Source: a virus
IMG/VR virus record: IMGVR_UViG_3300050821_001920
Location: 1-42,662 of that record
Direction: 5' to 3' (one strand)
DNA: 42,662 nucleotides
In this document: in pieces, positions 25,520-30,068 of the stretch
Layout: each line of letters starts with the position of its first letter
Position numbering within the stretch: the first letter of the stretch is position 1
Made by a program: the position numbers and the translations under genes
The notes under the pieces: model-generated
The model's database searches: none
What the model saw: the letters and a program-made list of their open reading frames with translations, nothing else
What the model was told of the DNA's origin: nothing

Positions 25520-25950
25520 CAGCCATACCTTCCATAGCGAAGATGCGTTTCTCCAGCCGGTCCATAGAATGGCATGGGGCCCTCGAATTTAAAGCCCAAC
25601 ATCTCCACCCACCGACAGCCTGGCGTGAATCCTTCGGCAACCGTGGCCTCAAGACGTTTCCATGGCTGGCTCGTGATAAAGCGTTGCACAGCTCGGTGCA
25701 TGAATAGCATGTGACGCCCAGCCTCAGGAGACATCAGAGCCCAGCATACGCCATGATTTGCGCTTATCTTCGCGATACCTCCACAGATCATGATGCGATC
25801 AGCCTCGAACGCCGTAACGGCAGGACCTTCAGGTCTTGCCATTTGCGCATAACTCGCTGGCACAATCGACACCTCAGTGATCTGCGCATCCTGCACGCCT
25901 TGGGCACGAAGAAGGTCAACGTGATAGGGCTTGAAGACCTCGATTCTCAT
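25519..25950 (-). CDS. GNAT-fold internal virion protein, gp13-like
   Basis: The 143-residue protein starts MRIEVFKPYHVDLLRAQGVQ and ends with a GNAT-like C-terminal block (RWVEMLGFKFEGPMPFYGPA, GETHLRYGR). It has the size, position (between tail nozzle and gp14-like protein) and fold signature of T7 gp13-type internal protein A. A functional acetyl-CoA loop is not obvious, so it may be a structural relic of the fold. Start ATG 25950 overlaps the nozzle stop. Confidence 0.75.
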   Translation of the reverse strand: MRIEVFKPYHVDLLRAQGVQDAQITEVSIVPASYAQMARPEGPAVTAFEADRIMICGGIAKISANHGVCWALMSPEAGRHMLFMHRAVQRFITSQPWKRLEATVAEGFTPGCRWVEMLGFKFEGPMPFYGPAGETHLRYGRYG

Positions 25951-28886
25951 TGATCGTCTTCTACTTTGTATTGCGGATACAAACCTACAACTGTCATCGG
26001 CAGTGGCCCTGTTGTCTGCACCAGCACATAGAAATCGCGCTGATCCTGATCGGATGAAGCTGAGTCAGGGAAGGAAATCGGGAAATCCCCGGACTGCAGT
26101 GGCGGCGGCGAGTCCAATGGCGTGTTGGTGTAGTTGTAGACAATATTTTCCATATTCTGCATGGATATAGCCGTAAGCCCCAAGGGGTCCTGGTAGTTCT
26201 GGGTCACGAAGTTCTGATTAGATAGCTTGCCGATTGAGCCGCCTGCGGTATCCACCAGCCGTATAACGAGCGTTGCGCCCTGCTTCTTCTTGCCCTGTGC
26301 AGTTCCCACATCAGCGCCACCTTCTGGACGCATGGGCACCAGGTTGCCTTGATAGGGGAAGCCTAGATTCACCACGTTGAAAGTATTGGCGAGCGTCAAG
26401 GAGCCAGTGGGCCCCACCACTTGCTGCGGTTGAGTTGCTCCATCTGCGAGGATCGCCACGGTTTGATTCCACAGAACCGGTGGAAGTCCAGTGATTGTCT
26501 GGCCGCTCGTAGAGCCAAGCGAATAACCGCCTCCAGATAGATAGCTAAAGGTTCCACCGAGACCCAAATTCTGAGAAATGCTGAAAGATACCCCAGGATT
26601 AACTGCTATAACGATTGCGCCCTGTATGTTGGGGTTGAAAGTTCCGGTATAGAGGATTCCTGAGATAAAGACATTTTGACCAATGGCTGGAGTCGTAGCG
26701 GTGAAGTACGTAGTATTTCCACCGCCATGCAATCCACCTGAAGCACTGATCACGTTGGTGATCGCGAAAGCTGGTGAGAGAACTGTTTGTACACCACAAT
26801 CAACATACCAAGCCGATGCTTGAGAATCTCCTACATACCCGCCCTGCGGTCCCTCATAGTGCTTGGCCATGTATTCAACGGTGCGGATTACGGCGCCATT
26901 GATCGTGCGATTGATGATCATCCATACCTCATCGCGCAGTCCATCAGGCGCTGGAGTCACGCTGATCGATTCACAGATACCGCCATTGCCTAGGTTATGT
27001 CGGTTCCAGGCCGTGACCTGATCTTCCCGGTTGAAGGTATAGGAGAGCAGCGTCCCGTCAGCTCGCGTGGCCCAAAGTACGCTCCAGGGCTCCTGCTGGA
27101 AGGCGATGGAGGTAATCCCACCAATCGTGATGTGATAAGCAAACTTGGACTGATCGGTAGAATCGTAGCGATTAAGGTAAAAATTGTAGTCCGCGGCAAA
27201 GACCTTGCGGCCCGCGCGCTGGACATACAGAAGCGATGGCCCTACCAGAATCGGCGCAATGTGCCGACAGCGCCAATTGCTCTGGCGTAGAACCTCCACA
27301 TTCGCAGGGCCCAAGGGAGAGGCCGAGTAGTTTGCAGCATCCAGCCCATATTCACCGCCCTCCGTCCCAACAAGCATGATAATCGCGCCATTGAGCCAGC
27401 AGATGTTGGATGAATCAGTGCCTGTCACAATGACATTGATGGCCGCATCGGTGGTCTGCTGGCCAAAGAAGTCCTGCGCATGTGAGTTGTAAAGTCCAGG
27501 CACAGAACCCCAAAGAGTGAGTTTCCCACCCCAAAAGAGCCGATCTTTGAAGAACGTATTCGCTCGAGGCCATTCAGTGGTATTACTCCACGCGCCTAGT
27601 TGCCACTCCACTGAGGCGTTTCCAATGATGGTGCCGCCAGAGGAATAGGCCGTGAAGCTAGTTGAGTCGATACCAGCTAGAGTGACTGTCGCACCATTCG
27701 CCACTTGATTTGAATAGGGGTTTTGGTTGACCTGCGTCATTCCCACCACTCCGGTGATGAAGACCGCTTCCCCGGTGGTAAAGGCATTCGCGGCCGATAC
27801 CACCGCAGGGTTGGCCTGAGTGATCGCAGTAATCGCAGCGCTCGATCCAACCACATTAGCTGGGAAGCGTGTCAAAACCTTGGCTGTGACCTGCGTAGCG
27901 CTCGTGAAAGCGGTGATCTGCGCAATACCGTAGCCAGAGTCGGTGTAGAGCCAGCGCACCCCTGTAGGGCCATCCAATGCGCTCCCAGCCGTATGCACAG
28001 GAGGGGATCCGCCTGTGGTCGCGGAATTCAAGGCCACATAATTGTTGCCGTTGTTCACATTGATGGCGCCGACGGTGATCGCAGCTCCATTGGCCCATGG
28101 GGTCTGATTGAAGTATTGCGATTGAATCCGAACCAGCCGGCCGACATCGGTGGCGGCGAAGAGATTCCCGCCCCAGGCATTGATAGTGATGGCCTGTCCC
28201 TGAGCGGCTGAAACAGTCAGCGCTATCTCACTTCCTGGCACTAGAGGCGGTGGTGATGCGAAAGGACCATCGGTGGGTGAATACTGCGAGAACTGCCAGT
28301 TAGGCGGTGCGTTAGCAAAGCGCGTAAGCGTGTATGGAGGATATCCTACCCCAGCAGGTCCTGTGCCTGCCGCACCTCCAGCCAAGTAAAGCACGTCTCC
28401 CGATTGCACTACCTGAAGCGTGAACTCGCCTAGAGAATCCGTAAGATCTGCCGCGGCGTAGGGAGACGGTATTTCATATATCGCCATGGTTGGTGAGCCG
28501 TTATAAGGGGACATCGGGTACCAAAACGATGCATTAGGAGGCGCATTGCCTGTGGTCGGCGCGATGCAGTAATACGTGATGCCACCTGAGACAACCTGAT
28601 TACCCACCACATAGGCCGTTGCTCCGTTATAGGCCGGATTGCCAGTCGAGAGTAAGGGCCCGTGAAGGGTGTAAAAGCGGACATACTTGTCTCCGAATTC
28701 AATCTGGAAAGCTTGGGTTTGAGAGAACTCGAATCTCACCAGCCACGTGCGATTGGCACTGTTCTTAACCGGTTGAACGTATACCGTGCCCTGGCGGAAT
28801 GTGGCAGGGCCCTGCTTTAAGGATATGAAGTTCTGACCGATGTGGGCGGCGATCGGATACTTCTCATTATCGGTCCTGGATTCCAT
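25947..28886 (-). CDS. Tail tubular protein B (tail nozzle), gp12-like
   Basis: The protein is large and beta-rich, with the nozzle signature ISLKQGPATFRQGTVYVQP near the N-terminus and RSNWRCRHIAPILVGPSLLY and SIAFQQEPWSVLWATRADGT in the middle. It builds the distal tail tube. Residues 83-126 contain a carbohydrate-binding-like insert (AYVVGNQVVSGGITYYC, W). The first ATG (28886) gives 979 residues, but the conserved N-terminus (AIAAFNAGEWSPQ) lies upstream in frame with no ATG, GTG or TTG. An HNH gene ends exactly there. The real start may be a rare ATC (28943) or ATT (28922), or truncation at 28886, which has GGAG upstream. Confidence 0.88.
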   Translation of the reverse strand: MESRTDNEKYPIAAHIGQNFISLKQGPATFRQGTVYVQPVKNSANRTWLVRFEFSQTQAFQIEFGDKYVRFYTLHGPLLSTGNPAYNGATAYVVGNQVVSGGITYYCIAPTTGNAPPNASFWYPMSPYNGSPTMAIYEIPSPYAAADLTDSLGEFTLQVVQSGDVLYLAGGAAGTGPAGVGYPPYTLTRFANAPPNWQFSQYSPTDGPFASPPPLVPGSEIALTVSAAQGQAITINAWGGNLFAATDVGRLVRIQSQYFNQTPWANGAAITVGAINVNNGNNYVALNSATTGGSPPVHTAGSALDGPTGVRWLYTDSGYGIAQITAFTSATQVTAKVLTRFPANVVGSSAAITAITQANPAVVSAANAFTTGEAVFITGVVGMTQVNQNPYSNQVANGATVTLAGIDSTSFTAYSSGGTIIGNASVEWQLGAWSNTTEWPRANTFFKDRLFWGGKLTLWGSVPGLYNSHAQDFFGQQTTDAAINVIVTGTDSSNICWLNGAIIMLVGTEGGEYGLDAANYSASPLGPANVEVLRQSNWRCRHIAPILVGPSLLYVQRAGRKVFAADYNFYLNRYDSTDQSKFAYHITIGGITSIAFQQEPWSVLWATRADGTLLSYTFNREDQVTAWNRHNLGNGGICESISVTPAPDGLRDEVWMIINRTINGAVIRTVEYMAKHYEGPQGGYVGDSQASAWYVDCGVQTVLSPAFAITNVISASGGLHGGGNTTYFTATTPAIGQNVFISGILYTGTFNPNIQGAIVIAVNPGVSFSISQNLGLGGTFSYLSGGGYSLGSTSGQTITGLPPVLWNQTVAILADGATQPQQVVGPTGSLTLANTFNVVNLGFPYQGNLVPMRPEGGADVGTAQGKKKQGATLVIRLVDTAGGSIGKLSNQNFVTQNYQDPLGLTAISMQNMENIVYNYTNTPLDSPPPLQSGDFPISFPDSASSDQDQRDFYVLVQTTGPLPMTVVGLYPQYKVEDDQ

Positions 28887-28935
28887 TTGGGGACTCCATT
28901 CCCCTGCGTTGAACGCAGCAATGGCCGGTGAGGCT

Positions 28936-29454
28936 TTACCGATGATGATTCGGCGCGAATTCCCCGAAGTATTTCGCCTCCGCCTCTCTGCGAATTATCG
29001 CTGCCTCTTGGATTGACTCAAAGCTACCTAAATTTTTGCGTTTTCCATCGATACTGATATAGGCAACAAAACCGCGTCCTGGTCTTGGGTCTTTCCAGAC
29101 TCCACGTACGCCCGTCTTATTGGCCCGGCAAATTCGGATATTCTGCTGATTCTTACTCTTCGTTGCTTCTCGTAAATTTTCGATGCGATTGTCAGATTTG
29201 ATGCCATTGCGATGGTCGATAAATGCTTTTGGCATCTCACCATTCATGACCAACCACGCTACCCGATGAGCCAAATATATGCGCCCATCTATACGTAGCC
29301 TCACATAGCCATTCTTCGGATCAAACTGACCAGCTATGTCCCCAGGATGCATCCTGTGACCGGCGGCGCCACCCGCAATTTTCCAAGTGAAAATGCCACT
29401 TTCTGGATCATAGTTGTAACGCTGTACGACAGCGGCTAGGGATAAGGTTTTCAT
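28936..29454 (-). CDS. HNH homing endonuclease with AP2 domain
   Basis: The 172-residue protein has an N-terminal region with FTWKIAGGAAGHR, then an HNH_3-type core (YLAHRVAWLVMNGEMPKAFI, then DHRNGIKSDNRIENLREAT), then an AP2-like DNA-binding segment (KTGVRGVWKDPRPGRGFVAY, ISIDGKRKNLGSFESIQEAA). Free-standing enzymes of this type insert between structural genes of phages. Its ATG overlaps the tail tubular A stop (ATGA), and its stop lies within the reading frame of the nozzle N-terminus, so the insertion site is the junction of the two tail genes. Confidence 0.88.
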   Translation of the reverse strand: MKTLSLAAVVQRYNYDPESGIFTWKIAGGAAGHRMHPGDIAGQFDPKNGYVRLRIDGRIYLAHRVAWLVMNGEMPKAFIDHRNGIKSDNRIENLREATKSKNQQNIRICRANKTGVRGVWKDPRPGRGFVAYISIDGKRKNLGSFESIQEAAIIRREAEAKYFGEFAPNHHR

Positions 29455-30068
29455 GCGTTCCCCATCCTACATACCAGCCATTCGCTGTCCGCGTTGTGTC
29501 CAGGGGGCGACATGAAGGCATTCGAGGCCGCCGCATCTCGATAGGCTTTGTCCTTTCGATCCTCCGCAGCTTTCTGCTTGGCATCCGATCCGGTCAAGCG
29601 TTCGCAGCATGTCCACGCGAGTTGCGCAGCTAGCGCGATCACAAAGTTAGGATTGAATAACGTGGTGTTGGTGGTGTCTGCAACGTACTGAAATGAAACA
29701 GGAGAACCATAATCACAGAGCAAAATACCATTCTCAATCGACCAGTCAGCGTCCGTGGGCCCTTGCCGGTAATCAGACATATCGAGGCCTGCGTAAGTGT
29801 CCCCGATCTGCAATGGCCTAATGTAATCGGAAGGCAGCGCAAATTGCTGCTGAAATGGCCCGGATGCTGGCTTATTGGTAAGAGCTGGAAGTGAGGTCCT
29901 TAAAACCGTGAAGCGCCATGTTCCAGGGCCTTCCTGCATGCCCTTGCGCAGAAGATCGTACTCAATATTGATGATGCGTGCGGTGTTCGAGTTGTCGGTG
30001 AAGCTTGCGATGCTGGGCTTCCCGAGGATCGAGAGAGCAAGGTTTGCGATATCGACCTGAGAAGCCAT
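29451..30068 (-). CDS. Tail tubular protein A (adaptor), gp11-like
   Basis: The 205-residue protein begins ASQVDIANLALSILGKPSIA, then IINIEYDLLRKGMQEGPGTW, then RFTVLRTSLPAL, and has FALPSDYIRPLQIGDTYAG, the well-known pattern of T7 gp11-type tail tube/adaptor proteins. These form the ring between portal and nozzle. The C-terminal third is helical with many Ala. The ATG lacks a strong Shine-Dalgarno. Confidence 0.88.
   Translation of the reverse strand: MASQVDIANLALSILGKPSIASFTDNSNTARIINIEYDLLRKGMQEGPGTWRFTVLRTSLPALTNKPASGPFQQQFALPSDYIRPLQIGDTYAGLDMSDYRQGPTDADWSIENGILLCDYGSPVSFQYVADTTNTTLFNPNFVIALAAQLAWTCCERLTGSDAKQKAAEDRKDKAYRDAAASNAFMSPPGHNADSEWLVCRMGNA

Follow-up and report, generated by a model that had tools for sequence, protein, structure and literature searches.

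Among the closest described systems are the free-standing HNH endonuclease genes of phage T4, mobA-mobE, which are inserted between phage genes. As treated in the pertinent sections of one review (PMC2988022), the start of mobE overlaps the stop of the gene upstream (UAAUGA), translational coupling has been proposed for it, and promoters of downstream genes embedded in homing endonuclease genes (HEGs) favour HEG retention; those sections are concerned with promoters and split genes and describe no near-cognate start. As far as their description goes, Aeh1 mobE in nrdA and T4 mobA in gene 60 are tolerated HEG insertions that alter an important gene by splitting its coding region. In ShiLan, an out-of-frame HNH gene within a phage methylase has its stop among the insert's final bases and overlaps the host gene in another frame, while the insert itself stays in frame with that gene (PMC11855218). 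Initiation at rare codons is established elsewhere: infC starts with ATT in E. coli and with ATC in Streptomyces, and sigR with GTC, making ATC a natural start codon (PMC5472188).

The window analysed here is an entire IMG/VR virus record of 42,662 bases, a metagenomic consensus from an uncultured virus. Its structural genes lie on the minus strand, where tail tubular protein A (TTPA) is followed by an HNH/AP2 endonuclease gene and then by the tail nozzle (Table 1), and its long structural ORFs are intact. The locus resembles the T4 mob genes in carrying a free-standing HNH gene between phage genes, with the HEG start overlapping the upstream stop; unlike in T4, the downstream start codon itself has been replaced and now reads ATC. 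It also shares with Aeh1 mobE and T4 mobA an insertion that alters an important gene, but here only the stop/start join is changed and the reading frame remains whole. Like the ShiLan insert, it places the HNH stop in its terminal bases and overlaps the neighbouring gene in another frame, whereas it ends before nozzle codon 2 and contributes nothing to that gene except the start triplet. ATC is a candidate start comparable to those of infC and sigR; theirs are regulatory, whereas that of the window belongs to a phage structural gene and seems to have arisen as a side effect of a mobile gene.

Table 1. Coordinates of the features at the TTPA-HEG-nozzle locus of the window
Feature	Coordinates	Strand	Basis or remark
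Tail tubular protein A (TTPA, adaptor) gene	29451..30068	-	phrog_394 tail, E 3.7e-36; upstream of insert
ATGA: HEG start (ATG 29454-29452) overlapping TTPA stop (TGA 29453-29451)	29451..29454	-	sequence
HNH/AP2 homing endonuclease gene (predicted, free-standing), 172 aa	28936..29454	-	phrog_99, E 7.6e-64; Pfam HNH_3, E 2.3e-17
In-frame stop TAA closing the nozzle frame upstream	28995..28997	-	codon-by-codon reading
GGGGA, Shine-Dalgarno-like	28961..28965	-	anti-SD duplex about -5.7 kcal/mol
Two further in-frame ATC (28949, 28946), alternative starts	28944..28949	-	directly upstream of ATC 28943
ATC at ancestral nozzle start codon; proposed start	28941..28943	-	in the HEG's last two codons (CAT CGG)
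HEG stop TAA, from bases of nozzle codons 2-3 (GGT AAA)	28936..28938	-	GGT AAA also in HEG-less L011
ATT codon (I8), alternative near-cognate start	28920..28922	-	codon-by-codon reading
ATG (M20), first canonical start	28884..28886	-	GGAG 28897-28894 upstream, spacing 7 nt
Nozzle (tail tubular protein B) gene by homology, 998 residues from ATC	25947..28943	-	phrog_376 tail, E 6.3e-134

The HNH_3 match of the predicted endonuclease scores well above the Pfam cutoff (62.8 versus 24.8 bits), and its match to Pfam AP2 is weak (16.6 versus 33.3 bits). The conserved HNH residues D80, H81 and N89 are present and are invariant in the family alignment (A1); a single-sequence search found no close HEG relatives. 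The same alignment identifies the ATG of the HEG as the family's own first codon, and this ATG lies at the end of the insert opposite the nozzle start. The nozzle codon was therefore not literally captured by the HEG, as an earlier note on this DNA had proposed, although the evidence supports that note in placing the HEG where the nozzle start should be and in holding that the gene has lost its canonical start; the start was replaced.

Comparison with relatives defines the insert closely. TTPA and nozzle join directly in L002-L017, and among these genomes the HEG occurs only in the window, its presence or absence being polymorphic among relatives at one precise site. Among the closest HEG-less relatives, the join of L011 (TTPA 80% identical to the window) reads GCC-TAA-GTG-GGT-AAA-GCC; L002 (81%) is identical except for GGG in codon 2, and the join in L006 is TGATGGGGAAAGCC. 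Measured against L011, the window's TTPA continues to its last codon and then ends in the ATGA of the HEG, TAAGTG is replaced by the HEG, and the nozzle resumes after the insert at GGTAAAGCC. The insert is almost exactly the HEG ORF, and the three genes interlock, the HEG codons CAT CGG containing the nozzle start triplet ATC. The overlaps reported from the sequence alone, of the HEG's ATG with the TTPA stop and of the HEG's end (29454-28936, TAA at 28938-28936) with the upstream nozzle frame, were both recovered. An exact-pattern search with the HEG-nozzle junction matched only unrelated loci and gave no second genome with such a join.

Extra sequence is also found at the TTPA-nozzle join of L019, L134 and L150. 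In L134 (about 400 nt before position 1898) it is a different small gene of about 120 aa, fibronectin-III-like by eye. These insertions were considered as further copies of the HEG and rejected; they are not the HEG, and all three relatives retain ATG nozzle starts.

The HEG and nozzle frames overlap from 28994 to 28936, with the nozzle frame +1 relative to that of the HEG, an arrangement in which +1 frameshifting within the 59-nt overlap could yield a HEG-nozzle fusion; alternatively, the HEG might be spliced out as an intron or intein. However, inspection by eye revealed no slippery site, Rfam gave no match to a group I or group II intron, and the HEG ORF takes up the whole insert, so that neither an intron core nor splicing domains could be accommodated. 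An intron-encoded endonuclease (group I or II) and an intein were accordingly rejected, and fusion or splicing of any kind appears very improbable.

The identity of the downstream gene is supported by the nozzle-family profile, whose alignment with the solved Tail Nozzle 8ck1_A (E 6.3e-77) takes in the N-terminal motif (stretch 10-104). The conserved nozzle N-terminus GKASPAIAAFNAGEWSPQ is encoded in frame upstream of the ATG at 28886; this part of the frame translates as FAERRRRNTSGNSRRIIIGKASPAIAAFNAGEWSPQM and, read back to the TAA at 28997-28995, gives FAERRRRNTSGNSRRIIIGKASPAIAAFNAGEWSPQ. Codon-by-codon reading bore out the earlier note in that this stretch, open as far as the TAA, holds no ATG, GTG or TTG despite the conserved N-terminus, and extended the absence to CTG and ATA. 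The only ATN-type near-cognates within it are ATC at 28949, 28946 and 28943 and ATT at 28922. The conserved upstream segment is not a product of chance, because every relative examined has a homologous N-terminus.

Nozzle relatives were drawn from IMG/VR and GTDB genomes, giving 35 distinct sequences about 37-89% identical in the N-terminal region; five nozzle relatives were found on genome contigs. In all 35 the start codon (ATG in 19, GTG in 16) aligns with 28943, and ATC occurs there in the window alone. The nozzle start position is therefore 28943, the best candidate among those proposed from the sequence, and the HEG sits exactly where a canonical start has been lost. The annotated nozzle starts of the isolates BcepC6B and HTVC034P coincide with the same codon.

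Initiation at the ATG at 28886 would produce a nozzle 19 residues shorter. This is the first canonical start and follows a GGAG at a spacing of 7 nt, and residue 22 (28878-28880), which is Gly in 33/35 relatives and Ala in the other two, is an unusual Ser in the window. Yet none of the 35 relatives starts at the equivalent position, where Met is internal in 21 and absent in 14. Such a start would also remove the invariant G14 together with E15 and P18 (each in 34/35), residues of a motif whose conservation extends as far as the solved nozzle 8ck1. Moreover, the segment that would be removed still evolves as protein: window-specific changes in codons 2-20 comprise 4 synonymous and 0 non-synonymous substitutions, against 119 and 24 in codons 21-998, where the frame is intact, although in codons 2-20 much of this constraint and divergence may be older than the insertion. 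Taken together, these observations make a truncated nozzle improbable. RNA folding around 28943 versus 28886 did not discriminate between the candidate starts, and an AlphaFold2 model of the nozzle, with a pLDDT of 42, was not good enough to be used.

The ATT at 28922 would retain the FNAGEWSP core and belongs to a well-known class of near-cognate starts, exemplified by E. coli infC (PMC5472188). Against it, this codon lies 7 residues inside the conserved N-terminus and 13 nt beyond the HEG stop, and has no good Shine-Dalgarno (SD) sequence (-3.0 kcal/mol), making its use highly unlikely.

The original observation is thus confirmed, and its interpretation is supported in part. The HEG insertion most likely left the nozzle with a near-cognate ATC at its ancestral start position. 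We favour, at a probability of roughly 0.55, the reading in which the HEG replaced the TTPA-stop/nozzle-start join and the nozzle is still made at full length from ATC 28943, with low efficiency and by coupling. A free-standing HEG would have displaced a short L011-like TAA GTG join, its ATGA providing the TTPA stop, its last two codons the triplet at the nozzle start position, and nozzle codons 2-3 (GGTAAA) the HEG stop. Ribosomes just finishing the overlapping HEG would then initiate the nozzle at ATC 28943, perhaps also at 28946 or 28949. With 2 nt between ATC 28943 and the HEG stop, the geometry suits coupled reinitiation. In HEG-less joins (TAAGTG, TAGTG or TGATG) the nozzle start mostly touches or overlaps the TTPA stop, and SD sequences are mostly weak (-2.4 to -3.3 kcal/mol; two at -5.9), suggesting that coupling is the ancestral mode.

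Podovirus tails need the nozzle in few copies per virion, and for this reason low output might be tolerated. Two considerations weigh against efficient use of ATC. The nearest SD-like motif, GGGGA, precedes ATC 28949 by 11 nt and ATC 28943 by 17 nt, a longer spacing than usual. In addition, IF3 disfavours non-canonical starts as well as SD-less reinitiation (PMC2268962), and very little nozzle might therefore be made from ATC. An essential gene with a near-cognate start would be expected to carry a cost, and the HEG-nozzle join is known in one genome only; both points are compatible with a defective or fitness-reduced genome in which the nozzle is barely made and which is being lost or complemented in mixed infection. 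However, the canonical ORF of 979 codons is uninterrupted and under constraint, and no other decay was noticed, leaving this explanation with a small probability.

The origin of the ATC triplet can be approached through the HEG family, whose members often end in GEFxNHG. Among 71 distinct HEG loci, 44 are followed on the same strand by an ORF of 80 aa or more whose start is near the HEG end, and in roughly half of these 44 the start lies inside the HEG's last codons, indicating that overlap is normal for the family and that the near-cognate triplet is the exception. Salmonella phage INT55 (L034), with a same-family HEG upstream of terL, and L071 illustrate the parallel: the HEG ends AAC CAT GGC TAG and CAC CAT GGC TAA, respectively, and in each the CATGG nests the start of the next gene, which, unlike in the window, is ATG. 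The window HEG ends AAT CAT CAT CGG TAA; a single substitution at 28941, G in place of C, would turn this into a version with ATG GGT AAA. The nozzle start is replaced at the 3' join by the HEG's last bases; by analogy with INT55 and L071, an ATG lying within the HEG's terminal codons may have served as the start before it was lost. The long start-less frames behind the HEG in L076 and L077 are GC-rich and were judged spurious.

The main uncertainty of the ATC reading is this one base in a metagenomic consensus. Were base 28941 an assembly error or a minority variant, the true sequence would be ATG GGT AAA, with the HEG ending N-H-H-G and overlapping the nozzle in the ordinary way. The change of C to G alone gives an ATG at the exact ancestral start together with Gly as the last HEG residue, in keeping with the frequent NHG ending of the family and with the nested ATG of INT55 and L071 (NHG/HHG). 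On the other hand, errors are rare per base in an assembled contig consensus, the window's long structural ORFs are intact, and two further contigs also show near-cognate starts behind a HEG, ACG in one and ATT in the other, which means that such starts are not always errors. We regard a base error as unlikely.

These two contigs, L091 and L176, come from a phage pair unrelated to the window. They carry tail-fibre-like genes that are 73% identical (L091:2495-3958, L176:1003-2436), with an HNH/AP2 HEG directly upstream. The HEG ends with a TAG inside an SD sequence, AATAGGAGGCTGCC, conserved in both, and the expected start position behind it is occupied by ACG in L091 and ATT in L176. No ATG, GTG or TTG occurs before about codon 26 in L176, and in L091 the first such codon is a TTG lying 16 nt beyond the SD. 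Both genes thus seem, from their sequences, to have near-cognate starts just behind a HEG, a pattern resembling that of the window and counted in favour of ATC use there. Readthrough of the TAG is a rival explanation for this pair, because the HEG and the tail gene share a frame. A search for a HEG-less relative of this tail gene found none.

We tentatively raise the possibility, at less than even odds, that HNH/AP2 HEGs landing on stop/start joins can put their own terminal bases in place of the next start triplet, whereupon the essential gene would rely on the 3' end of the HEG and on HEG translation, and the HEG could not be cleanly deleted, near-cognates (ATC here; ACG and ATT in L091 and L176) being tolerated and perhaps keeping the product low. 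Such starts would escape gene callers restricted to ATG, GTG and TTG, and the predicted protein would lose its conserved N-terminus. If ATC is used, a mobile gene has left an essential structural gene with a near-cognate start in place of its canonical one, and production of the nozzle depends on translation of the adjoining parasite gene. In that case the locus would show cleanly, as a natural experiment, how weak a start can be tolerated in a phage structural gene.
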